Assembly (NCBI RefSeq): GCF_000355805.1
Contig: NZ_CM001837.1
Coordinates: forward strand, 2,779,868 to 2,843,867
Source of the DNA: Dokdonia sp. PRO95
Lineage (GTDB): Bacteria; Bacteroidota; Bacteroidia; Flavobacteriales; Flavobacteriaceae
Direction of reading: 5' to 3'
Length of the DNA stretch: 64,000 nt
Shown here: one piece after another, positions 3,736 to 63,673 of the stretch
How the letters are laid out: each line of letters opens with the position of its first letter
Position numbering within the stretch: position 1 is the first letter of the stretch
Notes under the pieces: generated by a model
What the model saw: the letters and a program-made list of their open reading frames with translations, nothing else
The model's database searches: none
What the model was told of the DNA's origin: nothing
Position numbers and translations under genes: made by a program

Positions 3736-5219
3736 TGGGAGAATTGACACCACTTAATCAAGAAAATCTAGCCGAAATAGGCAATAAAATATCAGTACCT
3801 ACCTATGACCGTTCACCACATAAGGCGAGCATTGTACACATAGGCGTAGGTGGTTTTCATCGCGCTCACCTTGCATACTACGTGCATCAACTAAGACAAC
3901 TGGGTGAAGCATCAGAATGGGAAATTTGCGGGATAGGCTTGCGCCAAAATGATAAAAAACTTCACGATATTTTCAAGAAACAAGACCATCTATACACCTT
4001 GATGGTACAGCATCCAGACGGAAAAAAGGAGGCAGAAGTCATTGGCGCTATTGTCGATTTTAAAATGGGTACAGACAGTCCAGAAGCTGTCATCACCCGT
4101 ATGGCAGCGCCTGAAACAAAGATTGTATCATTGACCATCACTGAAGGTGGATACAATTTTAATCCTAATACAGGTGAATTCAATTTTGAAAATCCGCAGA
4201 TTCAGCATGAGCTCGCACATCCTGACGATCCAAAAACGGTATATGGTTTTCTTACAGCATCCTTAAAAAGACGTCGTGACGAAGGCTTACCTGCTTTTAC
4301 GGTACTGTCTTGTGACAATATTGAGCATAATGGCAATATGATACAGAAAATGTTGCTCGCTTTCGCGAAAGCGCAAGACCCTACACTAGCACAGTGGATA
4401 GAAAAAGAGGTGAGTTTTCCTAACAGTATGGTAGATCGTATCACGCCAATAACCACGCAAGAAGACATCAAATTACTAGCAGAAACTTATGGCGTGGAAG
4501 ATGAATGGCCTGTTACCTGCGAACCTTTTATACAATGGGTGGTAGAAGATAATTTTTCTAATGGAAGACCCGCTTTTGAAAAAGTTGGCGTCCAGTTTGT
4601 ACCCGATGTAGTTCCTTATGAGAAAATGAAATTACGCCTGCTTAACGCTGGACATTCTGTGTTAGGACTTTTAGGAGTGCTACACGGCCACTCTACTATA
4701 GATGTATGTGTACAAGATGAGCTATTTGCACAGTATTTAAGAGCCTTTTTTGACGAAGAAGCAACACCAGTTTTAGGTGAGATTAAAGGCATTAATCTAG
4801 CAGATTATAAAGAGAGCTTGCTGGAGCGATTTGGGAATCCAAATATTAAGGATAGTGTAGATCGTATCTGTTCAGAGAGCTCGGCAAAGCTTCCAAAGTT
4901 TTTAATAGCAACTATTCAAGAGAATTTAGCTACTGGTGGAAGTATCAAATATGCGACACTTGTTTTAGTAGCTTGGTGTTATTATAGTGACAAACAAGAA
5001 AACCAAAACGGGCAAAAACTAGTCATTCAAGACGAAATGAAAGAGGAGTTGCATCAAGCAGCAAAGAAGACTACAGAAGATGCTTTAAGCTTTATAAAGC
5101 TGGAATCTATTTTTGGAAACCTTATTGATAACAAGAGATTTACAGATCTATACACGGAGATGGTTAATCGTTTTTACAATGACGTTGCTATTAAAAAGTA
5201 TATGCAAGAATTGTTATAA
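3735..5219 (+). CDS. Mannitol 2-dehydrogenase (long-chain polyol dehydrogenase)
   Basis: This 494-residue cytoplasmic enzyme is expected to oxidise D-mannitol to D-fructose with NAD+. The N-terminal Rossmann motif (VHIGVGGFHRAHLAYY) lies around residues 34-49. The catalytic pattern K-x4-N-x2-H is present as Lys299, Asn304 and His307 (KLRLLNAGH), matching the family. Length is normal for the long-chain polyol dehydrogenase family. The start codon shares one base with the stop of the upstream permease. Residues 209-213 (AFAKA) are encoded by one copy of the palindrome that recurs across this window. Related enzymes use fructuronate or tagaturonate, so mannitol is the likeliest but not the only possible substrate. 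Confidence 0.88.
   Translation: MGELTPLNQENLAEIGNKISVPTYDRSPHKASIVHIGVGGFHRAHLAYYVHQLRQLGEASEWEICGIGLRQNDKKLHDIFKKQDHLYTLMVQHPDGKKEAEVIGAIVDFKMGTDSPEAVITRMAAPETKIVSLTITEGGYNFNPNTGEFNFENPQIQHELAHPDDPKTVYGFLTASLKRRRDEGLPAFTVLSCDNIEHNGNMIQKMLLAFAKAQDPTLAQWIEKEVSFPNSMVDRITPITTQEDIKLLAETYGVEDEWPVTCEPFIQWVVEDNFSNGRPAFEKVGVQFVPDVVPYEKMKLRLLNAGHSVLGLLGVLHGHSTIDVCVQDELFAQYLRAFFDEEATPVLGEIKGINLADYKESLLERFGNPNIKDSVDRICSESSAKLPKFLIATIQENLATGGSIKYATLVLVAWCYYSDKQENQNGQKLVIQDEMKEELHQAAKKTTEDALSFIKLESIFGNLIDNKRFTDLYTEMVNRFYNDVAIKKYMQELL
4358..4373. repeat. 16-bp palindrome copy 1, inside mannitol dehydrogenase
   Basis: Perfect CGCTTTCGCGAAAGCG. It is read as Ala-Phe-Ala-Lys-Ala in the gene and lies in a helix where related enzymes have similar residues, so it looks like a sequence fitted to existing codons rather than an insertion. 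Confidence 0.9.
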
Positions 5220-5344
5220 ATAGCTGTTTTGAGTTGCTTGATACTCATTTTAGTCATTAAAAAGATAAAAGCAGCTCAAGGTGTGGGTTTTAGCTAAGGT
5301 AAAGTATAAAATATGTTATAAGAGGAATTGTACACTTTAAAAAT

Positions 5345-7492: not shown

Positions 7493-7546
7493 CTTAAATA
7501 ACTTTTGGGGCAGTAGTAAGATAGCAAAGAATAATTTAAAAGTCAC

Positions 7547-8189: not shown

Positions 8190-8440
8190 ATTATATTGCA
8201 TAGTAGCCCTTATCTCCTTGAAGGAATGAGGCAAGGTTGACACTTGATCAATTTAACGCAATACGTTTTATACATATTTATAATGTATTGATAATCAGCT
8301 TTATAATGTTGTAATGCGCTAGGCCATATAATTACTTCTTACGGGATACTCCCTCTATTACATTTCGCTTTTATGGGCCGCCACAGGCTATATTAAAAGC
8401 GTTCATACAATTATTTTATATTATATAATTTTTTGATTTT

Positions 8441-9130: not shown

Positions 9131-9138
9131 TCAAATTC

Positions 9139-11640: not shown

Positions 11641-11642
11641 GG

Positions 11643-19489: not shown

Positions 19490-19765
19490 TATTATAAATT
19501 CTAGAGTTTGCTGTTATTAATCTAATAATATATACTTCTTTAATTTTTAGGTATTCGCACAGTCAGATGGTACTTTTTTAATTTTCTATTTGCGCTATTT
19601 CATTAAATTAAAAAAAAAGAAAATTGCCAAACCTATTCCAACGCAACTTACGGTAAACCGCAAGCTACTCTAAATCCCCATAAAAACCTACCAACCAAAA
19701 CATAACATTTTAAATTTTTTACATTTTCTCTCATCTAGTTGAGAATAATTATTACTTTTAAAGTC
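19490..19765. other. Intergenic region between cassette and thiamine operon
   Basis: This AT-rich spacer contains the divergent promoters of the cassette (leftward) and the thiamine operon (rightward). A weak imperfect hairpin, CTTACGGT..ACCGCAAG, lies at 19648-19665. No gene is seen. Confidence 0.4.
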
Positions 19766-19848
19766 TAAACTTTAGGAGTAGCTATTAAATTAGTTTGAGA
19801 AAAATCCTTAGAACCTGATTTGGTTAATACCAACGTAGGGAAAAGTTA
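19766..19848 (+). ncRNA. TPP riboswitch (THI element)
   Basis: The sequence holds the conserved core: a TGAGA-containing arm (19795-19800), then GAACCTGATTTGGTTAAT, then ACCAACGTAGGGAA. This matches the thiamine pyrophosphate aptamer consensus (CUGAGA, ACCUGAUCUGGNUAAUNCCAGCGUAGGGAA). Closing-stem bases AACT (19768-19771) and AGTT (19844-19847) can pair. It lies about 100 bases ahead of thiS and should switch the whole thiamine operon off when TPP is plentiful. Confidence 0.93.
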
Positions 19849-19951
19849 GAGGTAGTGCATTCCTGCATATTTCCTCTATTTTTAATTCTATCCTTCTCAT
19901 TCCTTTATCGTTTATATAACCGAGGCATTATGCTTCATAATTGTATTAAAC

Positions 19952-22085: not shown

Positions 22086-22147
22086 CCCACGCTGCAAAAG
22101 CGTGGGCAGGCTTTCCACTACAATCTTTTGCCAGAAAAAGGCAAAAG
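22086..22147 (+). other. Two intra-operon hairpins after thiC
   Basis: CCCACGC/GCGTGGG (22086-22106) and CTTTTGCC/GGCAAAAG (22125-22147) form two separate stem-loops in the gap between thiC and the next gene. Neither has a U-tract. They may be mRNA processing or stability elements that set relative expression in the operon. Confidence 0.5.
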
Positions 22148-22177
22148 GATTTTCATTACAATCCTTAACTCAAAAAG

Positions 22178-22905: not shown

Positions 22906-23679
22906 TTGAAAACAAACAATTACATATTAACCATTGCAGGCTTAGACCCATCAAGTGGCGCAGGAATCACTTCAGATATTAAAACATTTGAAGCGCACCG
23001 GCTATACGGTTTATCAGTGTGTACCGCAGTCACGGTTCAAAATGATGTCGATTTTAAAGAATGTGTGTGGATAGACAAAGCTGTGATTATTTCGCAAATA
23101 GAAACGCTTTTTGAACGGTTTGAAATCTCCGTAGTGAAGATTGGTATTATTCAATCATGGGAAGTGCTGTCGCTTGTTTTGGATAGCTTACATATGCTTA
23201 ATCCTGAGATAAAAATCATTGTAGATCCCATCATAAAGGCGAGCGCTGGCTTTGATTTTCATAGCCTCGAGCATCAAGATATTTTGGATAAAATATGGTC
23301 ACAATGTTATGTGATTACTCCTAATTATGATGAGATCCAACTACTGTATCCAGACCTCAGTATTGAAGAAACGATAGAACACATAAGCAACTTGACAAAT
23401 ATTCACTTAAAAGGCGGACATAGAAAGGATAAAACGGGCTGGGACCTGCTTTACCACAGTAAAACCGTTGTAAAAAATATTACTCCTAAGGCAGAAAAGG
23501 TGTTACAAAAACATGGAAGCGGTTGTGTGCTTTCGGCCGCGCTGGCGAGTAATATTTTGTTGCAGCAAGGTATAGAAGAAGCCGCGATAAACGCAAAATA
23601 CTATACCGAAGCCTTTTTAAACTCAACCGATAGCTTACTGGGACAACACAGTTATCCAACAATAAAAATTAAATCGTAA
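22906..23679 (+). CDS. thiD: Hydroxymethylpyrimidine/phosphomethylpyrimidine kinase ThiD
   Basis: This 257-residue ribokinase-fold enzyme phosphorylates HMP and HMP-P to HMP-PP. Family blocks include TIAGLDPSSGAGITSDIKTF at the N-terminus, VDPIIKASAGF, TPNYDEIQLL, LKGGH and the catalytic GSGCVLSAALASN region. The start codon is TTG; no ATG allows a full N-terminus. Its stop overlaps the ATG of thiE by one base (TAATG). Confidence 0.93.
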   Translation: MKTNNYILTIAGLDPSSGAGITSDIKTFEAHRLYGLSVCTAVTVQNDVDFKECVWIDKAVIISQIETLFERFEISVVKIGIIQSWEVLSLVLDSLHMLNPEIKIIVDPIIKASAGFDFHSLEHQDILDKIWSQCYVITPNYDEIQLLYPDLSIEETIEHISNLTNIHLKGGHRKDKTGWDLLYHSKTVVKNITPKAEKVLQKHGSGCVLSAALASNILLQQGIEEAAINAKYYTEAFLNSTDSLLGQHSYPTIKIKS

Positions 23680-24320
23680 TGATACCAAAACTACATTATA
23701 TCTCTCAGGGTAAAACGCCAGAAGTGCATCTTGATAACATAGAGAATGCTTGTACGCATGGAGCAACACTGGTGCAACTTCGCTTAAAAAATGTCTCTTT
23801 AGACCAGGTACTAATTACAGCAAAAGAAGCGCGAGCAATAACCGCACAATACCGTACAAAACTCATCATCAATGATCACTATGAGATAGCAAAAGAAGCA
23901 AAAGCAGATGGTGTGCACTTAGGAAAAACCGACTCCTGCCCTACTATCGCTAGAACGCATTTATACTCTTGGCAAATTATAGGAGGTACTGCAAATACGC
24001 TAGAAGACTGTGTATCATTGATAAACAAAGGAGTAGATTACATAGGTCTTGGGCCGTTACGTTTTACATCTACCAAGAAGAATTTAAGCCCAATTTTAGG
24101 TTTTAACGGTTATCGTCTCATTACAGATGAATTAAAAACTAAAACTCCCATTATCGCAATTGGAGGAATCACCACAGACGACGTAACAGATCTACTAGAA
24201 ACAGGTATTTATGGAATCGCTATATCTGGAGAAATTACCAATGACTTTACAAAAATAGAAGCCTTCCAGCAATCCCTAGGAGCATCATTAATAGAAGAAC
24301 AACGCCATACATTTAAATAA
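23679..24320 (+). CDS. thiE: Thiamine phosphate synthase ThiE (operon copy)
   Basis: This 213-residue TIM barrel joins HMP-PP and thiazole phosphate to thiamine phosphate. Substrate-binding blocks are LVQLRLKN, LIINDHYEIA, ADGVHLGKTD, IGGTANTLED and GPLRFTSTKK. Length is normal. It is coupled to thiD and followed three bases later by thiG. A second full copy with the same first ten residues and a nearly identical tail (EQRHTFK versus EQRHSFK) is found at 40103. Confidence 0.93.
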   Translation: MIPKLHYISQGKTPEVHLDNIENACTHGATLVQLRLKNVSLDQVLITAKEARAITAQYRTKLIINDHYEIAKEAKADGVHLGKTDSCPTIARTHLYSWQIIGGTANTLEDCVSLINKGVDYIGLGPLRFTSTKKNLSPILGFNGYRLITDELKTKTPIIAIGGITTDDVTDLLETGIYGIAISGEITNDFTKIEAFQQSLGASLIEEQRHTFK

Positions 24321-28570: not shown

Positions 28571-28655
28571 ATTATTTCTTTAAAAAAGATGATTACTTTA
28601 TCACTATAACAAGACTCCAATTTTGCAATAAATATACTTTGAGTTGGATGTTTTA

Positions 28656-28671
28656 CGCTTTCGCGAAAGCG
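28656..28671. repeat. 16-bp palindrome copy 2, intergenic
   Basis: Perfect CGCTTTCGCGAAAGCG, extended to a 20-bp palindrome by TA on both sides. It lies between two minus-strand genes. Confidence 0.9.
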
Positions 28672-28784
28672 TACTTCAAGGACTAAAGGCTTGGAATATT
28701 ATTATACAAAACCTTAATGTGGTAAATACACATTTCTATGGAGTATTTTGTCTAAGAGCACCTCTAACAAAACCTTGGATTAGA

Positions 28785-33431: not shown

Positions 33432-33861
33432 AAATGCTTGATAATAGATACGCTGCTATAGATGTAAAAGACTTAATTTCAAATATAACTAAAAGTATAT
33501 TTTAAGCTCTGTATTATCAATCAATTACATATTTTAATGAAAAATTACGCTTTCGCGAAAGCGTAAAAAGAAAACCTTAAATCATAGTGTAAATAACATG
33601 ACCCACCTTTTAATGATTAAATCTATAATTTAATGTACAAAATGATAAACTGTTAACTGAGTCAATAAAAAAACTACTCTTCATGTAATGTAATGAGGAT
33701 AATGCCGTCAGATTACAAATCGTTTAAACTGATATCCTTATTATAGATGACGATTCACAAGAAATATGTTGTCATCTATTTGATTATGTAAGCATTAAAA
33801 AAATTAACTTTTTTTAAGCTAAAAGGTATCGTTTGTACACTAGTTTTACATCTTTAAAATT
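33432..33861. other. Intergenic region with palindrome
   Basis: Divergent spacer between the T9SS protein and the NhaC-family gene. It holds palindrome copy 3 and the likely promoter of the riboswitch transcript. No gene is seen. Confidence 0.5.
33548..33563. repeat. 16-bp palindrome copy 3, intergenic
   Basis: Perfect CGCTTTCGCGAAAGCG in the context TTA-palindrome-TAAAAAG, the same flanks as copy 5 at 40771. Confidence 0.9.
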
Positions 33862-33927
33862 AATTATCAAGAATCTCACAAAGGAGATAGCAACCTGCAA
33901 TAACGAGCAAGGTGCTAAATAGATAAG
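33862..33927 (+). ncRNA. Compact SAM-I-like riboswitch candidate
   Basis: Conserved SAM-I blocks appear in order: TTATCAAGA (33864-33872), AGCAACC (33889-33895), GGTGCTAAAT (33911-33920) and GATAAG (33922-33927). P1 is TTATC/GATAA, P3 is ACCTGC/GCAAGGT. The P2 arm is only a short hairpin (ATCTC/GAGAT) and P4 seems absent, so this is a reduced form. GGAGATAGCAA (33883-33893) can instead pair with TTGCTAT-TAT-CTCC (33969-33982), immediately before the start codon. Ligand binding would therefore free translation or block it through that switch. Confidence 0.7.
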
Positions 33928-33990
33928 CCAATTAATTGGAAACAATGTTAACGCATACTTCTATCTAATTGCTATTATCTCCTTGCAAGA

Positions 33991-35325
33991 ATGAAGAAGA
34001 ACATGACACAGACTACACAAATTACCCCAAAATTTACAGCCCTAATTCCGCTTTTCGTATTTGTAATTACATTTTTAGGCGTTGGTATTTATCAAGATGA
34101 TTTTTATGCTCTACCTGCACCTATGGCTGTTATTGCTGGAATTATCGTTGCTTTTATAATGTTTAGACAGACTATAAATGCTAAGATTGACATCCTCCTC
34201 AAAGGATGTGGTGACGATAAAATTTTAACCATGTGCCTCATTTATCTACTAGCTGGTGCATTTGCCGCAATAACTAATGCTACAGGTAGTGTAGATGCGA
34301 TTGTAAACCTAGGTCTAGATTATATTGCGATACAATATATTTACGTAGGTATTTTTGTGATTGCTGGGTTTTTATCGGTTTCTACGGGAACATCTGTGGG
34401 AGCAATTGTAGCTTTAGCACCCATTGTTGTTGGTTTTGCAGATAAAAGTAGTGCAGACCTTGCCATACTTTGTGGAGCCTTACTAGGAGGTAGTATGTTT
34501 GGAGATAACCTCTCAGTAATTTCAGATACCACGATTGCTGCCACTCAATCTTTGGGAACAAAAATGAGTGATAAATTCAAGCAAAATATAAAGATTGCGG
34601 TTCCTGCTGCACTTATAACAATCGCTATCTTAATTTTTCAAGGAGTAGATCTAACAACAGATATTACAGAAACAGTTGTTTATGAATATGATGTAATAAA
34701 AATTGCTCCTTATGTCCTCGTCATTATACTTTCTATTGTAGGCCTCAACGTTTTTGTTACGTTACTTGTAGGTGTACTTGCTGCAGCCTTACTAGGGATC
34801 GTTTATGGTGATTTTACCATCATAGAATCTACTAAAATTGCTTACACAGGTTTTACAAATATGACTGAGATTTTCTTGTTATCTCTGCTCACTGGAGGTC
34901 TTGCTGCGCTTGTGGCTAGTAATGGCGGTATTGAATTTATTTTAGTGAATATTAAAAAACTAATTAAGAGTAAAAAAACTGCGCAACTTGGTATTGCAGC
35001 GCTGGTAAGTACCATCAATATGGCAATTGCAAATAACACCGTTTCCATAATCGTCGCTGGACCTATCGCAAAGACCATTAATGATGAATATGAGTTAGAT
35101 AATAAGAAAACGGCTTCTATTCTGGATATTTTCGCTTGTATCTTTCAGGGGTTATTACCTTATGGAGCCCAGGTTTTGATGATCTTGAGCTTCTCAGAAG
35201 GTAATATCAATTACTTACATCTTGTAGCAAATACTTGGTATTTACTATTGCTGTTTGTAGTCACAATCTTATACATCATCTTTAAGAGTGATACAAATAA
35301 TCACGCTTTCGCGAAAGCGAACTAA
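33991..35325 (+). CDS. NhaC-family carrier, probable methionine transporter
   Basis: This 444-residue inner-membrane protein has about eleven to twelve spans and NhaC-family blocks: GTSVGAIVALAPI, LGGSMFGDNLSVISDTTIAA and ANNTVSIIVAGPIAK. Members are usually annotated Na+/H+ antiporters, but NhaC-family proteins placed behind SAM riboswitches are predicted methionine transporters (MetT). The SAM-I-like element directly upstream supports the latter here. The last codons before the stop (HAFAKAN) are encoded by palindrome copy 4. Family is firm, substrate inferred. Confidence 0.82.
   Translation: MKKNMTQTTQITPKFTALIPLFVFVITFLGVGIYQDDFYALPAPMAVIAGIIVAFIMFRQTINAKIDILLKGCGDDKILTMCLIYLLAGAFAAITNATGSVDAIVNLGLDYIAIQYIYVGIFVIAGFLSVSTGTSVGAIVALAPIVVGFADKSSADLAILCGALLGGSMFGDNLSVISDTTIAATQSLGTKMSDKFKQNIKIAVPAALITIAILIFQGVDLTTDITETVVYEYDVIKIAPYVLVIILSIVGLNVFVTLLVGVLAAALLGIVYGDFTIIESTKIAYTGFTNMTEIFLLSLLTGGLAALVASNGGIEFILVNIKKLIKSKKTAQLGIAALVSTINMAIANNTVSIIVAGPIAKTINDEYELDNKKTASILDIFACIFQGLLPYGAQVLMILSFSEGNINYLHLVANTWYLLLLFVVTILYIIFKSDTNNHAFAKAN
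35304..35319. repeat. 16-bp palindrome copy 4, at the 3' end of the NhaC-family gene
   Basis: Perfect CGCTTTCGCGAAAGCG read as Ala-Phe-Ala-Lys-Ala, two codons before the stop. A half-site (GCGAAAGCGAA) follows about 65 bases later. Confidence 0.9.
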
Positions 35326-35397
35326 GCAATATTAAAGCAAGAGGTAATTTTTAAAAGAAGATGGTGTTTAAATAAAATTCCAGCGAAAGCGAATAAA

Positions 35398-40102: not shown

Positions 40103-40744
40103 ATGATCCCAAAACTTCATTACATCTCTCAAGGTAACTCGCTTAAAGAGCATATAGAGCACATACAGAAAGCATGTAATGCTGGAGCAGAGCTCGTACA
40201 GCTACGTGTAAAAAAATGTTCTCAAAAAAAGCTGCTAGCCATTGCTCAAGAAGCTAGAGAGATTACCGCTCATTTCCAGACGAGACTAATTATTAATGAT
40301 GATTATAAAATTGCCAAAGAAGTCAAAGCAGATGGCGTACATCTAGGAAGCTCTGATGCCTGCCCTACTATTGCTAGAAAACACTTATATACTTGGCAAA
40401 TTATAGGAGGTACTGCACATACTTTACAAGATTGTGAGACGCTTATTACAAAGCAAGTAGATTATATAAGTCTAGGGCCTTACAGCACTACTACCACAAA
40501 AGAAACTACAGCAAGCACGCTGGGTGTTTCTGGTTACAAAGCGATTATAAAAGAGCTGGGAACCACTACTCCTATTCTTGCCGTGGGAGGCATTACTCTT
40601 AATGATGTTAAGGATATATTAGAAGTAGGTATCGATGGTATTGCCGTTTCAAAAGCGATAACGACAGATTTTAATAGCATTCGCTTGTTTAATGAACTTC
40701 TGGGTGCATCATCTACACATGAACAGCGACATAGCTTTAAATAA
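40103..40744 (+). CDS. Second thiamine phosphate synthase (ThiE paralogue)
   Basis: This 213-residue protein has the same length as the operon ThiE at 23679. It shares its first residues (MIPKLHYISQG) and its tail (EQRHSFK). Binding blocks LVQLRVKK, LIINDDYKIA, ADGVHLGSSD and IGGTAHTLQD are conserved. The loop after GP differs: YSTTTTKETTASTLG instead of RFTSTKKNLSPILG. It stands alone, without a visible riboswitch, so TPP may not regulate it. It may be a constitutive backup or have a changed substrate. Confidence 0.87.
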   Translation: MIPKLHYISQGNSLKEHIEHIQKACNAGAELVQLRVKKCSQKKLLAIAQEAREITAHFQTRLIINDDYKIAKEVKADGVHLGSSDACPTIARKHLYTWQIIGGTAHTLQDCETLITKQVDYISLGPYSTTTTKETTASTLGVSGYKAIIKELGTTTPILAVGGITLNDVKDILEVGIDGIAVSKAITTDFNSIRLFNELLGASSTHEQRHSFK

Positions 40745-40770
40745 TGCTTCTCGGTAATTCATAATAGTTA

Positions 40771-40786
40771 CGCTTTCGCGAAAGCG
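40771..40786. repeat. 16-bp palindrome copy 5, intergenic
   Basis: Perfect CGCTTTCGCGAAAGCG with TTA/TAA flanks, just after the second thiE gene and before its terminator. Confidence 0.9.
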
Positions 40787-40802
40787 TAAAAAGTTTACAA
40801 AG

Positions 40803-40838
40803 AAAAAGCCCATCTAAATTAATAGATGGGCTTTTTTT
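40803..40838. terminator. Bidirectional terminator between thiE paralogue and cold-shock gene
   Basis: AAAAAGCCCATCTA (40803-40816) pairs fully with TAGATGGGCTTTTT (40823-40836), with A- and T-tracts on both sides. Confidence 0.92.
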
Positions 40839-40855: not shown

Positions 40856-41047
40856 TTAGATAACTCTTACGTTTACTGCGTTTAATCCTTTGTTACCTTC
40901 TTTAAGTTCAAATTCAACTTGATCACCTTCGCGAATCTCGTCGATTAACCCAGAAATGTGTACAAAGTGGTCTTTTTCAACACCTTCTTCTGTAATAAAA
41001 CCAAATCCTTTAGTGTCGTTGAAAAATTTTACTGTTCCGTTATTCAT
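40856..41047 (-). CDS. Cold-shock domain protein
   Basis: This 63-residue single-domain protein has both RNA-binding motifs: KGFGFI (RNP1) and HFVHISGL (RNP2 region). It acts as an RNA chaperone. It differs at only six positions from the second cold-shock protein at 59164. It has its own promoter box (41090-41097). Confidence 0.95.
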   Translation of the reverse strand: MNNGTVKFFNDTKGFGFITEEGVEKDHFVHISGLIDEIREGDQVEFELKEGNKGLNAVNVRVI

Positions 41048-42682: not shown

Positions 42683-43087
42683 ACTAAATTTTGGTAAAGG
42701 TAATTATACTGCGTTTTACCGTGGTGATAATAACTCGTATTATTATGGTGATATGTATGAATAACGCTTTCGCGAAAGCGTAACGCACTAGAACAAAAAG
42801 TTTTAAGACTATAAACCATTAATTTATCATTAAGTAGGTAGTTTTAGTGTTCAATATGCGAAATATCTATACTTAAATTTTCTAAAAGCTGTGATTGAAT
42901 AAATTTTATGTCTGTTGTTATTGATTTATTATCAGTTTAATAGCTCAATTTTTACGATGAAAATAAATATTGTTCTAAAAATTATAATTATTTGTTAAAA
43001 GTTCATTTTTCACATTGAGAATACCTTGCTTATCTGTGGTTATTTGTCTGATTTATGCATATTTGCGTCACAATTAAGCAAATCTGA
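42683..43087. other. Intergenic region with palindrome
   Basis: Divergent spacer that holds palindrome copy 6 and then a stretch of AT-rich sequence with no gene or known RNA element. Confidence 0.5.
42765..42780. repeat. 16-bp palindrome copy 6, intergenic
   Basis: Perfect CGCTTTCGCGAAAGCG with TAA/TAA-like flanks (ATAAC...GTAAC). Confidence 0.9.
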
Positions 43088-45997: not shown

Positions 45998-46074
45998 TAA
46001 GGTAAGGTTCGGTTGTCTTTCATTTGTATGAGTCTATATTAGATTTTTTAGCATACATGAAAATGTTCTTTTTA

Positions 46075-46090
46075 CGCTTTCGCGAAAGCG
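46075..46090. repeat. 16-bp palindrome copy 7, intergenic
   Basis: Perfect CGCTTTCGCGAAAGCG (context TTTA...TAAC) between the EamA gene and the TetR operator. Confidence 0.9.
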
Positions 46091-46193
46091 TAACATCTTA
46101 CCTATCCCCTTTCGTGTCTATTAAACCAGCTCTATTTAAAAAGGATTATTACTATATCTATTTCTGCCTTAAATTAAATGTTTGTTAAAAAAG

Positions 46194-50601: not shown

Positions 50602-50617
50602 CGCTTTCGCGAAAGCG
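50602..50617. repeat. 16-bp palindrome copy 8, intergenic
   Basis: Perfect CGCTTTCGCGAAAGCG followed by TAAAAAG, the same right flank as copies 3 and 5. Confidence 0.9.
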
Positions 50618-51553: not shown

Positions 51554-51584
51554 AGGGTATGCTTTCGCAAAAGCATACCCTTTT
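51554..51584. terminator. Bidirectional terminator carrying a degenerate palindrome copy
   Basis: AGGGTATGCTTT (51554-51565) pairs with AAAGCATACCCT (51570-51581) with a T-tract after it. The core ATGCTTTCGCAAAAGCAT is a two-to-three base variant of the dispersed palindrome, here built into a working hairpin between convergent genes. Confidence 0.85.
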
Positions 51585-51587: not shown

Positions 51588-53615
51588 TTACCAAATTTCT
51601 ATGCGCTCCTCCTCTTTCTTAAAGTTTTCTTGTCCTTCTACTACATCAAAGGCTTCATAAAAAGGTGTAAAGTTCATTAATGGACCGTTTACACGCCACA
51701 TAGGTGGTGAGTGTGGGTCTGTAGCCACATAATTACGCAAGTATTCATCTCTTGTCTTTACTCGCCAAATACGAGCTACAGACATAAAAAATCTTTGATT
51801 AGGCGTGTAACCGCCTATGGAGATCGTATCTTTTCCTTGCTCAGTCATTTTAAAGGCATCATAAGCAATTGCGATTCCGCCATTATCTGCGGTGTTCTCA
51901 CCTACTGTGAGTGCTCCTTTAAGGTGCACACTATCTAAAACGGTAAAAGAATCATACTGCTCGATAATTTGCTGCGTCTTTGCCTTAAATTTTTTGTAGT
52001 CATCATCTGTCCACCAGTTAGTCACATTACCGTCTTTGTCATACTGCGCTCCTTGATCATCAAAAGCATGTGTAAACTCATGACCTATTACCATACCTAT
52101 ACCTCCATAATTTACAGCATCGTCTGCATAAAGATCAAAATAAGGCGGCTGTAATATTCCTGCAGGAAACACTATTTCATTAAGAGATGGGTTATAATAT
52201 GCTGTAACTGTAGATGGTGTTGTACCCCATTCATCACGATTAGGCGCTTTGTTTAATTGTTTAAGTTCGTAGTTGTAACTGTCTTTACGTAAAGCTACTA
52301 CGTTTTCAAAAAACTGCCCTCTGTCAATTGACACATCATACTCGCGCCATACATCTGGATACCCTATTTTTTTATTGATAGTATACAGCTTTTCTTTAGC
52401 TTTTACTTTAGTACTATCACTCATCCATGCTAGGTTTTCAATGCGAACTTCTAGTGCGCTCTGAAAATTATTTACAAGTTCCAGCGCTCTCTTTTTTGCA
52501 TCCTCATTGAAGTAACGCTTGACATACAGCTGCCCTAATGCAAATCCTATTTGCCTGTCTACATTACGTACCATGCGTTTAGATCGAGATTGTTGCTCAG
52601 ACTGTCCAGAAATAACCTTAGTGTAGGCAAATGCAGCATCTTGAAATGGAGTGCTTAAGATATTATCATGACTACTTATAGAATGTGCTTTTAGATATAC
52701 TTTCCACTGCGCTAGTGGCACACTTGATAACATGCTATTCAATGCATCATAATATGCGGGCTGTCTAACGTCAAGAGAGTCTACATTTGCTCCTAAGTTC
52801 TCTAGCATTTTTGGCCAACCTATAGCAGGTTGTTTAGCCGCTAGATCTTCAACTGAAAACTTATTGTAGTTGTCCTTTATGACTCTGCGCTCGATACGTG
52901 TTTTATGAGCGCTAGCAAGTTGTTGTTCTATGCTGTATACTGTTTCCGCTTTCGCGAAAGCGTTATCCTCACCCACTAATTCAAATATGGTAGCTATGTA
53001 CTTTTTATAGGCCTCTTGAATTGCTTTTGACGAGCCATCTTCATTGAAGTAGTAATCACGGTCAGGTAATCCTAAACCAGTCTGACCAACATGCAGAATG
53101 TTTACAGTGCTATTTTTTTGATCTGGAGATATGTAAGGAGCTATTACCGAATAATCTCCGCTCATGATTTGATTGCTCACAAAGCCCATCATCTCTGAAA
53201 CATTATTAATGGATTCAATTCGATTGAGAATGGGCTTCATAGGTTCAATCCCTCGTTTATCAATACTTAAAGTATCCATACCTGACGCATAAAAATCACC
53301 TACAAGTTGTTCTACAGAACCTTTGATATGTGTTTCTGTTGAGACTTCTTCTAAGATATTCTTTAATAACTCTTGCTGCGGAATGTTTAAAAATCTATAC
53401 GCTCCTACTCCTACTTGATCATCTGCAATAACAGCATTATCATACCACGTTTTATTGACGTGATTGTAGAAGTTATCTCCAGGTGCAATGGAGGTATCTA
53501 TACCGTCAAAGGCAATAGCTTTCTGTTTTTGCTGAGCGATATCTTCATTTCCACTTTTAGTATCACATGAAATCACTAAAACAGCTATGGCTGCTGAGTA
53601 AACAAGATTTTTCAT
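51588..53615 (-). CDS. M13-family zinc metallopeptidase (PepO-like) lipoprotein
   Basis: This 675-residue lipoprotein (VLVISC) has the peptidase M13 N- and C-terminal domains. The zinc site is HEFTH (His512 and His516) with third ligand Glu573 in GENTADNGG; NAYYNPSLNEIVFPAGILQ-type sequence lies before it (TAYYNPSLNEIVFPAG). The family cleaves oligopeptides. It is expected in the periplasm or at the outer membrane. Palindrome copy 9 encodes AFAKA near residue 220. Confidence 0.94.
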   Translation of the reverse strand: MKNLVYSAAIAVLVISCDTKSGNEDIAQQKQKAIAFDGIDTSIAPGDNFYNHVNKTWYDNAVIADDQVGVGAYRFLNIPQQELLKNILEEVSTETHIKGSVEQLVGDFYASGMDTLSIDKRGIEPMKPILNRIESINNVSEMMGFVSNQIMSGDYSVIAPYISPDQKNSTVNILHVGQTGLGLPDRDYYFNEDGSSKAIQEAYKKYIATIFELVGEDNAFAKAETVYSIEQQLASAHKTRIERRVIKDNYNKFSVEDLAAKQPAIGWPKMLENLGANVDSLDVRQPAYYDALNSMLSSVPLAQWKVYLKAHSISSHDNILSTPFQDAAFAYTKVISGQSEQQSRSKRMVRNVDRQIGFALGQLYVKRYFNEDAKKRALELVNNFQSALEVRIENLAWMSDSTKVKAKEKLYTINKKIGYPDVWREYDVSIDRGQFFENVVALRKDSYNYELKQLNKAPNRDEWGTTPSTVTAYYNPSLNEIVFPAGILQPPYFDLYADDAVNYGGIGMVIGHEFTHAFDDQGAQYDKDGNVTNWWTDDDYKKFKAKTQQIIEQYDSFTVLDSVHLKGALTVGENTADNGGIAIAYDAFKMTEQGKDTISIGGYTPNQRFFMSVARIWRVKTRDEYLRNYVATDPHSPPMWRVNGPLMNFTPFYEAFDVVEGQENFKKEEERIEIW
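52947..52962. repeat. 16-bp palindrome copy 9, inside the M13 peptidase gene
   Basis: Perfect CGCTTTCGCGAAAGCG read on the minus strand as Ala-Phe-Ala-Lys-Ala (EDNAFAKAETV). Confidence 0.9.
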
Positions 53616-57143: not shown

Positions 57144-58484
57144 TTATTTTTTCCTCTTCTTTTTTGGAAGCGGCTTAGGTTCGTTACTTTTAAGAGTAGA
57201 TGCGATACGTTCTGCCATCAGTTTATCAATGAGTTCTTCTTTTGTTAAGTGGTGAAAAACGTTGTGTACTTTATCTTTTAGTTCACTTGCAATTTCTCTG
57301 TTAGGCTTCGTTTTGAAGATTTTCTTAGCCCATAGTACCGTATTATTATCCTCAATTTGTTGTGGTGACGCTTTCGCGAAAGCGGAAAAAGAAATACCAA
57401 GCTCATGTTCAAACTCAGGAATCTCTTTTACTTCCTCTTCTTGTAATATAGTAAGCGCATATCCAGTTGCACCAGCACGAGCTGTACGACCACTTCTGTG
57501 TACATACATATCGTAAAATTCTGGAAGGTGATAATTTACAACGTATTCAATACCTTTTACATCAATACCTCTAGCAGCAAGGTCTGTTGCTACCAGAATG
57601 TCAATGTGCCCTTCTCTAAATTGCCCCATCATACGGTCACGTATAGCCTGACTTAAACTTCCATGGATGGCTCCCGAAGAGAATTTATTAATCGCTAGAT
57701 TTTTGGATAGTTTATTAACTGCTGCTTTTGTTTTACAAAAGATGATACCTCTCTGCCCTATTCTTGAGTTCAAGAAATGCATTAAAACGTCTAGTTTTTC
57801 AATAGGCTCAACAACTACATATTCATGTGTAATTTTCTGACTACCTAGGGTCGCCATTTCGGCGCTAACTTCTATTGGGTTCTTAGAAAGGTAATTTTGA
57901 ACTATTTGTTTGATTGCTCCCGGCATGGTAGCAGATAATAGAAAAGTCCTTCTATTATTAGGCATAGCAGTAACAATAGTATCTAGACTATCTTTAAGTG
58001 AGCTTACCATCTCATCTGCCTCATCAAGAACAAGATAATTTGCTTGTGTGATGTTTATAGCCTTGCGCTCCATAAGATCTATAAGACGTCCAGGTGTTGC
58101 TACAATAATTTGAGCAGGTTCCTTAAGTCTTTCTATCTGATCTTTTACAGGTACACCTCCATAAAGAACGGCAATACTCACCTTAGGAAGGTTTACCGCA
58201 AGTGCCGCCATGTTAGATTGTATCTGTTGCCCTAGTTCTCTAGTAGGTACTAGAATTATTGCTTGGGTAGTCGGATTTGTACGATCTATAAGCTGTAATA
58301 ACGGTACCCCAAAGGCTACCGTTTTTCCAGTTCCAGTTTGTGCGAGTGCTATGACATCCTTTTTAGACGTAAGCATAGCAGGGATGGCCTGCTGCTGTAT
58401 ATCTGTAGGTGAAGTAATCTCTTGTGATTGTAAAGCTTTCTGGATGGCATCCATCACGCCTAATGCAGTAAAAGTACTTGTCAT
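57144..58484 (-). CDS. DEAD-box RNA helicase
   Basis: This 446-residue helicase has all core motifs in order: AQTGTGKT, PTRELGQQ, TPGRLIDL, DEAD, SAT, then HGSLSQAIRDRMM, ATDLAARGIDV and HRSGRTARAG. A basic C-terminal tail (PKKKRKK) likely binds RNA. It fits ribosome assembly or mRNA decay roles. Palindrome copy 10 encodes AFAKA after the helicase core. It lies upstream of nothing else on this strand and close to a DnaJ-KTSC and a cold-shock gene. Confidence 0.95.
   Translation of the reverse strand: MTSTFTALGVMDAIQKALQSQEITSPTDIQQQAIPAMLTSKKDVIALAQTGTGKTVAFGVPLLQLIDRTNPTTQAIILVPTRELGQQIQSNMAALAVNLPKVSIAVLYGGVPVKDQIERLKEPAQIIVATPGRLIDLMERKAINITQANYLVLDEADEMVSSLKDSLDTIVTAMPNNRRTFLLSATMPGAIKQIVQNYLSKNPIEVSAEMATLGSQKITHEYVVVEPIEKLDVLMHFLNSRIGQRGIIFCKTKAAVNKLSKNLAINKFSSGAIHGSLSQAIRDRMMGQFREGHIDILVATDLAARGIDVKGIEYVVNYHLPEFYDMYVHRSGRTARAGATGYALTILQEEEVKEIPEFEHELGISFSAFAKASPQQIEDNNTVLWAKKIFKTKPNREIASELKDKVHNVFHHLTKEELIDKLMAERIASTLKSNEPKPLPKKKRKK
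57369..57384. repeat. 16-bp palindrome copy 10, inside the DEAD-box helicase gene
   Basis: Perfect CGCTTTCGCGAAAGCG read as Ala-Phe-Ala-Lys-Ala (SAFAKASPQQ) in the linker after the helicase core. Confidence 0.9.
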
Positions 58485-59140: not shown

Positions 59141-59163
59141 TCTTAATTGAAAGTATATATAAG

Positions 59164-59355
59164 TTAGATAACCTTTACGTTAACTGCATTTAATCCTTTG
59201 TTTCCTTCTTTAAGGTCAAATTCCACTTCATCTCCTTCTCTAATCTCATCGATTAATCCAGATACGTGTACAAAGTGATCTCTTTCAACTCCCTCTTCAG
59301 TTATAAATCCAAAACCTTTAGTGTCGTTGAAAAATTTTACTGTTCCTTTATTCAT
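59164..59355 (-). CDS. Cold-shock domain protein, second copy
   Basis: This 63-residue protein differs from the one at 40856 at six positions only, and carries the KGFGFI and HFVHVSGL RNA-binding motifs. I start it at ATG 59355; a 95-residue frame from further upstream adds an unrelated tail and is rejected. It is separated from the DnaJ-KTSC gene by a terminator. Confidence 0.94.
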   Translation of the reverse strand: MNKGTVKFFNDTKGFGFITEEGVERDHFVHVSGLIDEIREGDEVEFDLKEGNKGLNAVNVKVI

Positions 59356-60102: not shown

Positions 60103-60140
60103 TAGAAATTAAAGCGATTATTTTTGAGTCGCTATTTTTA

Positions 60141-60156
60141 TGCTTTCGCGAAAGCG
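60141..60156. repeat. 16-bp palindrome copy 11, one mismatch, intergenic
   Basis: TGCTTTCGCGAAAGCG differs from the perfect form only at its first base. Confidence 0.85.
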
Positions 60157-60327
60157 TAACCCCAACCCAAACCCCAACAAGTAACATACAGTAAACGCTT
60201 GTTATTTCTTAAAAAACAGCTGTTTATTGCCAAAAATGTACTAATTAAAACATAATCCAAACGCGAGAATATTACTTGCTCAGATTTCTCGTTATATTTA
60301 TGGTACAACAATCAAACCCATATAATT

Positions 60328-60639
60328 ATGAATAATAACACAAAAGGAATATTAGGTCTACTCGCTGTAGCAGCAGGAGCTTTAGGATTATATAAATACA
60401 ATAAAATGTCTCCTGAGGAGAAAGCAGCTTTAAAAGACAAAGCAAGAAAAGCTGGAGATACTCTTAAAGAAAGCTACAACGAAGTTGAGGACCAAGTTTC
60501 TGAAAAACTTACAAGCTTAAAGAACGCCCTAGAGCGCGAAACTGCCAAAGCTAAGAACTCTGTAAACAGAAACGTAGATCACGCAGAAGATGTAATTGAT
60601 ATTACTGCAGAGAATATTGAAAATACAGTAAAGTTATAA
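60328..60639 (+). CDS. YtxH-domain-like protein
   Basis: This 103-residue protein has an N-terminal membrane segment (GILGLLAVAAGALGLYKY) followed by a charged amphipathic helical tail with repeated Lys/Glu/Ala units (DKARKAGDTLKESYNEVEDQ). That is the YtxH plan: small stress-induced membrane proteins of unclear role. It is followed by a strong terminator. Confidence 0.8.
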   Translation: MNNNTKGILGLLAVAAGALGLYKYNKMSPEEKAALKDKARKAGDTLKESYNEVEDQVSEKLTSLKNALERETAKAKNSVNRNVDHAEDVIDITAENIENTVKL

Positions 60640-60652
60640 AACGATTTCAAGT

Positions 60653-60688
60653 AAAAAAAGTCCCATCTACATGATGGGACTTTTTTTG
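60653..60688 (+). terminator. Terminator after the YtxH-like gene
   Basis: AAAAGTCCCATC pairs with GATGGGACTTTT over a TACAT loop with A- and T-tracts on both sides, so it may serve both directions. Confidence 0.92.
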
Positions 60689-60703
60689 TTTTAAGGAAGT
60701 GAT

Positions 60704-61636
60704 CTATACTCTACCTCTTCTAAAACGCATCTTCTTTGTTTGCGTCTTATCATTTTTACGTACGCTATTTATAAAATATACACCGCTTAGCAATACACAG
60801 GCTGCAATTATAGATTGAGTTGTCACATTTTCATCTAGAAAATACCAACCCAAGAATAAAGCAACGACAGGGTTGATATATGCAGAGGTTGCAACTTTTT
60901 CTGTTGAGACATTTTTAAGTAAGTAGTTAAATGATGTAAATGCCGCTATACCTCCAAAAACGATGAGACAAAGCATAGATATTTGTGCTCGCGAACTCCA
61001 ATCAACCGGAGAACTCCATGTTTCTCCTATAATGAAACTCCATGTCCATAATAAAATACCTGCACTCACCATTTGATATCCAGTGGTGATAAAGAAATTT
61101 TTAGGTAAATCTGCTTGTGCGACAAATAGGCTCCCTATACTCCAACTCAAAATACAGGTGAAAATCATTATAATTCCAAGGGTTGCTCCTTCTTGCATAG
61201 CAATCTCTCTTTGAGAAACCAATAAATACATCCCTATTAAACCTAAAACTACACCAATTATTGACTTGAGCTTTAATCCCTTTTTCTGTACAATACGCAT
61301 GAGCAAGAGAATTGACAGAGGCTGTAATGCCGCTAGAAGTGCTGCAAAACCACTATCTACATAGTTGAGAGCCCATACAAAAACACCATTCCCATAAACC
61401 AAAAAGAAAAAGCCCGCTAGTACAGAGTTACCTAATTGTTTTTTAGATATTTTGAGTGATTTCCCACTAAGTCCCGCTATTAAAAATATAATGAGACCTG
61501 CAGTGGTAAAACGTAAACCGGCCAGCATAAAAGCAGGAACTTCGGTTACTACAATTTTATTCCATAAATAGGTTGACCCCCAAAAAACATAAATTGAGAA
61601 AAAAGCTAGTATGGCTAAGTAGGTTTCCTTCTTCAT
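60704..61636 (-). CDS. EamA/DMT-family transporter
   Basis: This 310-residue protein has ten spans in two EamA halves. The N-terminal VFWGSTYLWNKIVV and PAFMLAGLRFTTAGL, and later PVVALFLGWYFLDENVT, fit the family. The C-terminus is basic (RFRRGRV). It is divergent from the Crp/Fnr regulator at 61798. Substrate unknown; amino-acid or metabolite export is common in the family. Confidence 0.9.
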   Translation of the reverse strand: MKKETYLAILAFFSIYVFWGSTYLWNKIVVTEVPAFMLAGLRFTTAGLIIFLIAGLSGKSLKISKKQLGNSVLAGFFFLVYGNGVFVWALNYVDSGFAALLAALQPLSILLLMRIVQKKGLKLKSIIGVVLGLIGMYLLVSQREIAMQEGATLGIIMIFTCILSWSIGSLFVAQADLPKNFFITTGYQMVSAGILLWTWSFIIGETWSSPVDWSSRAQISMLCLIVFGGIAAFTSFNYLLKNVSTEKVATSAYINPVVALFLGWYFLDENVTTQSIIAACVLLSGVYFINSVRKNDKTQTKKMRFRRGRV

Positions 61637-61797
61637 TGTAAGGCCTTAAATGGATTAAAATTTATAAGTTACGAACTTAACTATTTTATGCATGCGGAGT
61701 ATATCTTTATTTTTAAATAAAACAACAATAGAATTTGTAATTTATTCAAGTAAACTGCGCTCTTGAGTAGTATCTTTACCTTTATTTAAACACCATC

Positions 61798-62370
61798 TTG
61801 GACGAAATACGCACCTATATAAACCAGTTTGCTCCCGTATCTGACATAGATTGGGAACTTTTTACGTCAAAGCTTGTAGAACGCACGTTTAAAAAGAAAG
61901 AAACTATCCTTGAAGCTGGTGTAACAGAAAACTATATCTCTTTTATCAAAGAAGGATCTGTGCGTTTATTCATACCTAAAGAGTCATCTGATAAAGAAAT
62001 CACCTTTGGATTTTGTTTTGAAAACCAATTTGTGAGTGCGTATGACTCATTTTTACTTCAAGAACCATCTGATCACTCTGTGCAAGCGCTTGTTGATACC
62101 GTAATTTTGAGTGTTTCTTATAAAGATTTACAAGAAATTTACGAGAAAACAGCTATCGGTAATCTTATAGGAAGACTTACTGCCGAAAATCTTTTTATCA
62201 CAAAGTCAAAAAGACTACAATCACTACTAGACCAAACTGCAGAAGAGCGTTATTTGAGCATCTTTAAAGAACGCCCTCAGTTACTTAAGGAAATTCCTCT
62301 GAAATATATAAGCTCTTACATAGGCGTGACACCACAGGCTCTAAGCCGCATACGCAAACGTATTAGTTAA
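61798..62370 (+). CDS. Crp/Fnr-family transcriptional regulator
   Basis: This 190-residue protein has a cyclic-nucleotide-binding-like beta-roll (ENYISFIKEGSVRLFIP, ITFGFCFENQFVSAY) and a C-terminal helix-turn-helix (ISSYIGVTPQALSRIRKRI). No Cys cluster for an iron-sulfur centre is present, so it is not a classical Fnr. The start is TTG. It is followed by an acyl-lipid desaturase gene and divergent from an EamA gene, either of which might be a target. Confidence 0.87.
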   Translation: MDEIRTYINQFAPVSDIDWELFTSKLVERTFKKKETILEAGVTENYISFIKEGSVRLFIPKESSDKEITFGFCFENQFVSAYDSFLLQEPSDHSVQALVDTVILSVSYKDLQEIYEKTAIGNLIGRLTAENLFITKSKRLQSLLDQTAEERYLSIFKERPQLLKEIPLKYISSYIGVTPQALSRIRKRIS

Positions 62371-62420
62371 TACAGGTTCATTGTCTGGCATTATTTGTGA
62401 AAGTACCTTTGTAAAAAAAA

Positions 62421-63176
62421 ATGCTTATAATATTCTTTATAGTAATCCTCTGGTATAGCGGGTTATTTTTTCAGTCATTCTTTCTCCATAGATATGCAGC
62501 TCACCAGACATTTACAATGTCTAAAACCACAGAAAAGATCACATTTATATTAACTTGGCTTTTCCAAGGACCTAGTTATTTAAGTGCTTACGGTTATGGC
62601 ATCATGCACCGCATGCACCACGCTTATACAGATACAGAAAAGGATCCTCACTCCCCTTCTTACGATGCAAATCTATTTGCAATGATGTGGAAGACTAAGA
62701 CTATTTATCAAGACATAAATAACGATCGTATTGAGGTAGACCCTAAGTTTAAGAAAAACGTACCACAATGGAAGAGCTTTGATACTTTTGCAAGTTCGCG
62801 TCTATCAAGATTACTTTGGGTAGGTCTATATATCGCTTTCTTTGCGGTGTTTGCAACAGCATGGTGGCAATGGTTATTACTACCTATTGCTTTTGCTATG
62901 GCACCTATACATGGAGTGATTATCAACTGGTTTGGTCACATACTAGGATATACAAACTTCAAGACTAAGGACACTTCTAAAAATTTATTTCGCTTTGACT
63001 TCCTGATGATGGGAGAAGCATATCATAACAACCACCACAAATTTGCGGCTAGACCTAACTTTGGAGGTGTACACTGGTATGAGATTGATGTTACTTATGT
63101 AATTATGAAAGTATTACATCGCACAGGAGTAATAAAAATGAAACCTATCACGATAGACGTGCACTCGCACCATTAA
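62421..63176 (+). CDS. Acyl-CoA/acyl-lipid desaturase
   Basis: This 251-residue integral membrane di-iron enzyme has the three His boxes HRYAAH (around residues 22-27), HRMHH (around 68-72) and HNNHH (around 198-202). It introduces double bonds into fatty acids and adjusts membrane fluidity. Its stop overlaps that of the convergent msrA gene by four bases. Confidence 0.92.
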   Translation: MLIIFFIVILWYSGLFFQSFFLHRYAAHQTFTMSKTTEKITFILTWLFQGPSYLSAYGYGIMHRMHHAYTDTEKDPHSPSYDANLFAMMWKTKTIYQDINNDRIEVDPKFKKNVPQWKSFDTFASSRLSRLLWVGLYIAFFAVFATAWWQWLLLPIAFAMAPIHGVIINWFGHILGYTNFKTKDTSKNLFRFDFLMMGEAYHNNHHKFAARPNFGGVHWYEIDVTYVIMKVLHRTGVIKMKPITIDVHSHH

Positions 63177-63673
63177 AAATTGACCATTCTGTGAGCAAAC
63201 GTATTCTTAAGTTCCCCCAGCTTAGGTGATATGTAACGCTCACAGAAGGGTTTATTTGGGTTTTTCTTATAGTAATTTGTAATCTCTTCTCTTGAAGGAT
63301 TAAAGTCTTTAAAAGGCATTACGGCAGTAATTATTTTCTCTTTGCTGCTTTTTTGTAAGGTGTTTAATACCGCTTTCGCGAAAGCGTTATCCTCCTCATT
63401 ATAAACATACACCGCAGATCGATAGGTATCTCGCATGCTGTGCATTTTTCTACTCTTATGCGTGAGAAGGTGAATTTCAATTAATACCTCCAGAGGTATA
63501 ACGCTCCTATCATAATGCACAATAACAGCTTCAGAAAAGGAAGCGTGTATTCCCTCTGAAGCAATATATCCTTGCTCTACAGTCAGAACTCCACGTAATG
63601 ATTGGAAAACCGCCTCTGTACACCAGTGACAGCCACCTCCAAATCCTATTGTATATATTTCTTTATCTTTCAA
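63173..63673 (-). CDS. msrA: Peptide methionine sulfoxide reductase MsrA
   Basis: This 166-residue enzyme reduces methionine S-sulfoxide. The catalytic motif is GGGCHWC (Cys15), with His in place of the usual Phe. VEQGYIASEG, SRKMHSMRDTYRSAVYV-type regions (KMHSMRDTYRSAVY) fit the family. The start is TTG, immediately next to the stop of the upstream Mqo gene. AFAKA near residue 98 is encoded by palindrome copy 12. Confidence 0.88.
   Translation of the reverse strand: MKDKEIYTIGFGGGCHWCTEAVFQSLRGVLTVEQGYIASEGIHASFSEAVIVHYDRSVIPLEVLIEIHLLTHKSRKMHSMRDTYRSAVYVYNEEDNAFAKAVLNTLQKSSKEKIITAVMPFKDFNPSREEITNYYKKNPNKPFCERYISPKLGELKNTFAHRMVNF
63371..63386. repeat. 16-bp palindrome copy 12, inside msrA
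   Basis: Perfect CGCTTTCGCGAAAGCG read on the minus strand as Ala-Phe-Ala-Lys-Ala (EDNAFAKAVLN). Confidence 0.9.

Follow-up and report, generated by a model that had tools for sequence, protein, structure and literature searches.

A dispersed 52-bp palindromic element in Dokdonia and its possible role as a self-DNA exchange signal

Introduction

Iterated, spaced DNA words are already known as a kind in bacteria; we describe here an element whose length, dyad, base-class arms and exclusion distance are new. It came to notice in a stretch of 64,000 nucleotides from Dokdonia sp. PRO95 (contig NZ_CM001837.1, positions 2,779,868 to 2,843,867 of the forward strand; hereafter the window), where a 16-bp palindrome, CGCTTTCGCGAAAGCG, recurs in and between genes. 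Among the closest described systems, parS and Noc-binding sites are 16-bp palindromes for a dimer. HIP1, the highly iterated palindrome of cyanobacteria, is described in a passage of PMC4390886 as palindromic, highly repeated and located in genes as well as between them. For Chi in Escherichia coli, a table of PMC1939737 gives 1008 copies in ~4.64 Mb, and the same source cites Karlin for the even spacing of uptake sequences. Passages of PMC7811141 portray uptake sequences as relatively evenly distributed, as accumulating by drive rather than being inserted elements, and as under-represented in coding sequences as well as in recently gained segments. Within the family that its authors assign it to, which is also that of Dokdonia, Riemerella columbina is stated in part of PMC7965970 to prefer its own DNA, and the Riemerella uptake genes named in part of PMC8459023 encode a DUF5689 protein and an outer-membrane protein.

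The Dokdonia element resembles each of these systems in part. With the uptake signal sequences and DNA uptake sequences of Pasteurellaceae and Neisseriaceae it shares hundreds of near-perfect copies, intergenic enrichment, copies within genes, even spacing (in the genomes G206 and G242 introduced below), a probable origin for the most part by substitution, flanking tracts and lineage specificity; it differs in being palindromic, in having a core of 14-16 bp flanked by symmetric base-class arms of 18 bp, in being sparser, and in that no receptor tracks the word, as far as the one candidate pair covered (Riemerella-type) is concerned. Like HIP1 it is a highly iterated, lineage-confined palindrome inside and between genes, but the HIP1 core is GCGATCGC whereas the Dokdonia core, GCTTTCGCGAAAGC, is twice as long, sparser, spaced and provided with arms. 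Its frequency of one copy per ~5 kb on resident DNA recalls Chi (RecBCD/AddAB); unlike Chi, it is a palindrome and much longer. A 16-bp palindrome fit for a dimer recalls parS and Noc-binding sites, from which it departs in its hundreds of copies, its sequence and its arms. Finally, dispersed short palindromes are also typical of the repetitive extragenic palindromes and bacterial interspersed mosaic elements (REP/BIME) mobilized by REP-associated tyrosine transposases (RAYT), from which the present copies differ in mostly lacking an insertion signature and in avoiding each other. A search of the full text of the open-licence PubMed Central literature found no mention of either the 16-mer or its 14-mer core.

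Results and discussion

The genome of PRO95 (G000; 3,305,093 bases in one contig) harbors 577 copies of the 16-mer as compared to 0 of its reversed control, a number far from random expectation, together with 794 copies of the 14-mer core. In the window, the 11 perfect copies and the one-mismatch copy at 60141 listed in the original prediction were all confirmed, with dinucleotide shuffles of the same DNA (n=100) yielding a mean of 0.01 copies at up to two mismatches. In a survey of 397 genomes from 237 genera, drawn from the larger group of Flavobacteriaceae, high 16-mer counts were confined to three genera, namely Dokdonia (g1; 577 and 630 copies), g11 (495, 579 and 448) and g191 (153), with 42 other genomes having 1 to 13 copies each; a class-wide survey of 395 genomes, for which g11 and g191 were not drawn, gave no more than 4 copies of the 14-mer per genome outside Dokdonia. 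Besides G000, the carriers referred to most often below are Dokdonia sinensis (G206, treated as one genome with the D. sinensis locus), G242 (579 copies) and G190 (153 copies). Among 80 loci fetched with a 675-aa protein of the window, the motif was found only in D. sinensis and an uncultured Dokdonia. A scan for other long palindromes in the 74 of these loci that were at least 9 kb long revealed a GC-containing one only in two Dokdonia loci, those in L032, L088 and L096 being AT-only or AT-rich. By RpoC identity to Dokdonia, g191 is nearest (89%), followed by motif-free genera at 86-87% with g8 first, and no g11 RpoC is among the matches listed (down to 2734.5 bits); the motif thus joins two separated lineages.

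Alignment of the copies on the core uncovered a larger structure. Most copies have TTA ahead of the core and TAA behind it, followed on each side by an 18-bp arm, giving a symmetric element of ~52 bp. The right arm comprises 6-8% G vs. ~18% in the whole sequence, with A and C raised, the left arm is its C-poor mirror image, and the base bias stops at +18/+19. These arms are seen in coding and intergenic copies alike and are found in D. sinensis and g11, being weaker in g191; intergenic copies of g11 display an extra strong A at +3 and +9 (86% each). A 3-bp periodicity of the arms was significant for A and T in intergenic copies, to which missed genes may contribute, and we do not rely on it. 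In one-mismatch 16-mers, the altered base was usually the outermost one (19 of 22 in G000, 13 of 16 in G190, 3 of 4 in G010 and all 9 in the first stretches taken from G206), suggesting that the nearly invariant core is 14 bp, with the outer C/G pair mostly conserved. In the sampled stretches, cores with 0, 1 and 2 mismatches numbered 99, 10 and 34 in G000, 117, 22 and 32 in G206, and 68, 13 and 4 in G242. The information content is ~33 bits for the core, in copies chosen by its 14-mer, and ~7 bits for both arms, as against ~12 bits that would suffice, by an arithmetic estimate, to mark 577-794 places in 3.3 Mb; this excess fits a homogenising drive. From the dyad symmetry we surmise that the element is read by a protein, probably a dimeric one.

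If a methyltransferase created and maintained the word in a HIP1-like way, as a signal for methylation or mismatch repair, this would account for a palindrome that is highly repeated inside and between genes. However, methyltransferases read sites far shorter than an element made up of a 14-bp core and 18-bp arms, the mutual exclusion of copies described below is not predicted by mutational models, and 5-methylcytosine methyltransferases (PF00145), the one class searched for, were absent from two motif-rich carriers, G190 and G242. The parallel to HIP1 drawn at the outset is accordingly disfavored as far as a 5-methylcytosine signal goes, and we deem an explanation of this type very improbable.

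The placement of the copies proved to be equally regular. Gaps among the first 100 copies of G000 had a coefficient of variation (CV) of 0.71 (p 2e-4 vs. exponential); relative to a null model in which the split of sites between coding and intergenic DNA is preserved, the CV was 0.66 vs. 1.02 in G206 and 0.70 vs. 1.04 in G242, with 0 and 2 control words, respectively, as even. Neither of the 400-kb stretches from these two genomes contained a pair of cores closer than 500 bp (10.1 and 5.8 expected), and gaps below 1.5 kb numbered 7 in G206 vs. 24.8 on average among 1112 control words and 0 in G242 vs. 15.6 on average among 1614 control words, no word being as low in either case. Likewise, 20 stretches of G000 had 4 pairs below 1.5 kb vs. 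27.3, and nine stretches of G190 had 1 vs. 5.4; three pairs of 16-mers closer than 500 bp were seen in G000, at 126, 100 and 262 bp. Copies of the element, which has an overall density of 1 per 4-6 kb, exclude one another within ~1.5 kb in four genomes. We infer from this a benefit or a drive that counts once per kilobase-scale stretch. Copies were enriched in intergenic DNA 5.2-fold in G206 and 5.4-fold in G242, values that are approximate as the gene caller misses genes, and the density was lowest between convergent genes (0.45 and 0.2 per kb, respectively, vs. 0.86 and 0.87 between divergent genes).

Exclusion and placement together argue against seeding, transposition, mutational bias and termination as sources of the pattern. 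We do not favor gene conversion or repeat seeding as the way in which the motif spreads, because copies avoid one another rather than cluster. Transcription terminators would explain the capacity to form hairpins, and a diverged relative at 51554-51581 does look like a terminator; this reading is nevertheless scarcely credible to us, as the density is lowest precisely between convergent genes in G206 and G242 (the window, where 1 and 2 sites are concerned, has the reverse order), many copies lie within genes, and no constant T run follows them. On the other hand, a DNA-level role, as initially proposed, is well supported by the core, the symmetric arms, the ~5-fold intergenic enrichment, the exclusion and the copies in phages described below, and we are confident that some kind of site is maintained here at the DNA level.

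One such role would be in chromosome structure: a nucleoid, loop-anchor or occlusion factor would bind the dyad, whose even spacing would serve folding. A dimer would fit the perfect dyad and its symmetric arms, and short-range exclusion is in keeping with this role, as is a similar density in the first 592 kb of G000 and elsewhere (169 vs. 176 per Mb). The sites also persist: D. sinensis has an identical core at 7 of the 11 places alignable with G000, or at 8 of 14 upon inclusion of three further places (one kept, two not), with the flanks of kept cores being 65-84% identical. Nevertheless, the site contains more information than needed, it is present in phage contigs, and no ori/ter gradient of the kind found in Noc- and MatP-like systems was seen in the 20 sampled stretches of G000. 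We also considered a re-specified ParB and rejected it: each of six carriers has one ParB, with a low Pfam score, and no alignment column splits these from the ParB of 14 non-carriers. Taken together, a structuring role appears unlikely, albeit a contender to be taken seriously.

For the copies within genes, we examined 1.66 Mb from five genomes, comprising 464 kb of G000 and 1.2 Mb of four other carriers. Labels came from a home-made codon-score caller that misses genes (e.g. 63173-63673) and divided 328 core sites into 117 coding, 157 intergenic and 54 ambiguous, the last being excluded. The original prediction held that the motif always reads AFAKA within genes, which is true for all five coding copies of the window but not beyond it, where the 117 coding sites read AFAKA in 70 cases, RFRES in 26 and LSRK in 21; AFAKA is thus a preference and no fixed rule. 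A homologue of at least 50% identity was available in the fetched DNA for 27 of these sites, 4 of which had the motif in all matches. Among the other 23, some of which represent the same place in two species and are not all independent, 15 aligned without gaps to all motif-free homologues, 2 to some of them, and 6 only with gaps. Accordingly, the notion that the motif occupies ordinary residues and not insertions stands for most of the sites checked, with insertion possible at those six, and we surmise from these alignments that coding copies arose mostly by substitution of existing residues.

Individual genes illustrate both situations. For the 51588-53615 gene, alignment with 29 motif-free loci left no gap at the site in 26 of them and showed one or two extra residues in 3, NAKANAE-like residues taking the place of NAFAKAE in Dokdonia; across all 80 fetched loci the result was mixed, with 30 of 80 matches ungapped. 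The D. sinensis counterpart of the window copy 52947 is interrupted within the motif by 24 bp inserted in frame (L029 near 11364), and an 18-base repeat in this insert occurs exactly twice in that genome. In the gene at 57144-58484, motif-free relatives have FKKFKKAD or similar, with no gap, vs. FSAFAKAS in Dokdonia, and the window copy at 57369 is kept in D. sinensis, which has a one-mismatch core at the place of window copy 63371. D. sinensis (L246 2652) and g11 (L267 15068) share one coding copy down to the residues it occupies (TEG-IAFAKA), which may reflect shared descent, transfer or convergence.

These comparisons bear on a REP/RAYT-type origin, or that of some other transposed or seeded repeat. 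Hundreds of hairpin-capable palindromes enriched between genes would agree with such an origin, as would the six gapped coding sites. The bulk of the coding sites checked (15 of 23), however, were ungapped in every motif-free homologue, similarity between copies ends at +18, copies avoid one another, and Y1 transposases (PF01797) were absent from the carriers G000 and G190, making this origin highly improbable in our opinion.

The motif is not restricted to chromosomes. Scanning of viral contigs yielded 41 stretches from 30 contigs with the motif, and in the 11 contigs with at least two copies the 30 copies show arms (G 9.8%); eight single matches in contigs of at least 48% GC show none (arm G 0.23-0.43) and look like chance. 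One phage contig with 6 copies in 37 kb matched the terminase, portal and baseplate-hub families of PHROGs, its arms being weakly G-poor (0.17 at 45% GC), and another with 4 copies in 24 kb matched tape-measure and integrase (arm G 0.07); at 0.16 and 0.17 copies per kb, these two PHROGs-checked contigs equal the density of G000 (577 in 3.3 Mb). Phage contigs L114, L129 and L146, with the motif near host density, probably represent phages of motif-bearing hosts.

Copies in phages at host-like density are pertinent to an intracellular tag of self, whereby the site would halt or turn a nuclease or recombinase in the manner of Chi and long-resident DNA, phage DNA included, would carry it every few kb. 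Spacing similar to that of Chi in E. coli, the density in the two phage contigs and the sufficiency of one copy per stretch are compatible with such a tag. Chi sites, however, are short and asymmetric, and RecC, the one component searched for, was absent in 26 of 26 genomes, with the E. coli control giving a match. We therefore view a self-tag as rather improbable. Were either the chromosome site or this self-protection site to be true, Bacteroidota would have a system comparable to Chi or Noc.

By analogy, the best-documented cause of such a pattern would be a self-DNA exchange signal, as with the uptake sequences of Haemophilus and Neisseria. We favor this reading tentatively, at somewhat less than an even chance: the 52-bp element would be a dispersed site for a putative dimeric, sequence-specific DNA-binding protein, and cells with this reader would preferentially take up, or keep and recombine, site-bearing DNA. 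Sites would then build up by molecular drive wherever protein function permits; one copy per kilobase-size stretch would suffice, with a second nearby adding nothing. In its favor count the number of near-perfect copies, their excess information, their exclusion, even spacing and intergenic enrichment, the mostly ungapped coding sites, the fit with the published picture of uptake sequences and of the self-preferring R. columbina, and, as detailed below, the presence of ComEC and the recently exchanged look of the thiamine genes in the longest motif-free gaps of the window and G242. A broader proposition, which is possible but which we hold with more doubt, is that of a new self-DNA recognition in Bacteroidota based on a 52-bp dyad whose 18-bp arms would be read by base class (amino vs. 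keto); the dyad would count only once in every ~1.5 kb, be common to chromosome and phages, and be present in two separated lineages, between which the reader protein would probably have moved. If an exchange signal is indeed at work, we know of no earlier one that is both long and palindromic, and it would help to tell which marine bacteria swap DNA. In any event, the length and regularity of the word, its composition-coded arms and its exclusion distance offer a direct handle on a putative DNA-binding protein in a marine genus.

Several observations weigh against an exchange signal, as evidenced by: 1) a dyad of ~52 bp suits an intracellular dimer, and known uptake sequences are non-palindromic according to a passage of PMC1939737; 2) the same source finds uptake sequences less even than chromosome-compacting sequences should be, such that spacing alone is not decisive, and the 64-kb window by itself is not even (CV 1.19 vs. 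0.99, 12 sites); 3) Haemophilus has ~1 uptake sequence per kb, as given in part of PMC7811141, vs. 1 per 4-6 kb here; 4) a near-host density in phage contigs is not required by an uptake-only model; 5) a thiamine block that looks exchanged, described below, is devoid of any copy, and the longest gap in D. sinensis (17.7 kb) shows no recent arrival by its GC content; 6) six of 23 coding sites align only with gaps; and 7) part of PMC7965970 states that Flavobacterium johnsoniae was not competent in its authors' hands.

The proteins searched for included known uptake functions. ComEC was present in 20 of 20 genomes searched, the DUF5689 protein in 24 of 24, and homologues of the two Riemerella uptake genes lie side by side in these genomes; as specificity factor for an exchange signal they were rejected, a further point against it, since the carriers do not form a group in the tree of either protein (0% of 200 bootstrap trees). 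The DUF5689 protein beside its outer-membrane barrel has 46% identity between two Dokdonia species (L293, L290) and, judged by this divergence, is a fast-evolving surface locus. A comparison for excess protein similarity between Dokdonia and g11 in the sampled stretches gave no DNA-binding candidate among the best 25 rows, ThiC being the protein that stands out.

ThiC is 93.7% identical between the window and g11, as compared to a median of 55% for 177 matches, and the longest motif-free gaps of the window (4374-28655, 24 kb) and of G242 (26 kb, L258-L259) contain the same thiamine genes. By sequence similarity, this block was probably exchanged recently between the Dokdonia and g11 lineages.

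Metal-efflux islands with motif copies at conserved spacings were seen in several otherwise motif-poor genera of the family (L170, L171, L173-L179, L180 and L181). Sampling of 12 stretches from 10 of the 42 motif-poor genomes gave 30 copies, of which, with genes named by our own reading, 24 lie in efflux-type genes (pump, outer-membrane efflux protein or heavy-metal ATPase), with a Fur-like gene holding 2 of the remaining copies and other genes 4; for L170, the sole locus run against Pfam, an AcrB-family pump, an outer-membrane efflux protein and a heavy-metal P-type ATPase were recovered, with a multicopper oxidase adjoining. The donors of these islands would appear to have been motif-bearing, and the motif may serve as a tracer of metal-efflux islands seemingly moved out of carrier lineages and of phages probably infecting carriers.

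Features of the window

Within the window, the copies of the element and one related hairpin are as follows, with the strand of the host gene given in brackets.

4340-4391, core 4358-4373: element in a mannitol-dehydrogenase-family gene (+), AFAKA frame
28638-28689, core 28656-28671: element, intergenic by the codon-score caller, with only short open frames there
33530-33581, core 33548-33563: element, intergenic between divergent genes
35286-35337, core 35304-35319: element in the last codons of a Na+/H+ antiporter family gene (+), AFAKA frame
40753-40804, core 40771-40786: element, intergenic between convergent genes, same core in D. sinensis
42747-42798, core 42765-42780: element, intergenic between divergent genes
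46057-46108, core 46075-46090: element, intergenic, present too in the uncultured Dokdonia L052
50584-50635, core 50602-50617: element, intergenic, present too in the uncultured Dokdonia L052
51554-51581: bidirectional terminator-like hairpin with a diverged core
52929-52980, core 52947-52962: element in the 675-aa gene 51588-53615 (-), presumably an M13-type peptidase, AFAKA frame
57351-57402, core 57369-57384: element in gene 57144-58484 (-), which we take from its motifs to be DEAD-box-helicase-like, AFAKA frame
60123-60174, core 60141-60156: element with one mismatch at the outermost base
63353-63404, core 63371-63386: element in gene 63173-63673 (-), assumed to be msrA-like, AFAKA frame

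Two variants had been claimed in addition to the perfect copies. The one at 60141 was borne out, but the other, placed at 51558, corresponds to TGCTTTCGCAAAAGCA at 51560-51575, three mismatches away from the 16-mer, and forms the stem of the hairpin at 51554-51581, which is probably not a working copy of the element.

The window also contains a thiamine pyrophosphate (TPP) riboswitch (19764-19858), a Flavo-1 RNA (22100-22174) and an S-adenosylmethionine riboswitch (SAM-I/IV, 33859-33955), the last of which precedes the antiporter gene ending in the motif. Two pairs of near-duplicate genes were noticed as well, one at 40856-41047 and 59164-59355, which we presume to be cold-shock-like, and the other at 23679-24320 and 40103-40744, which we take to be thiamine-phosphate-synthase-like.

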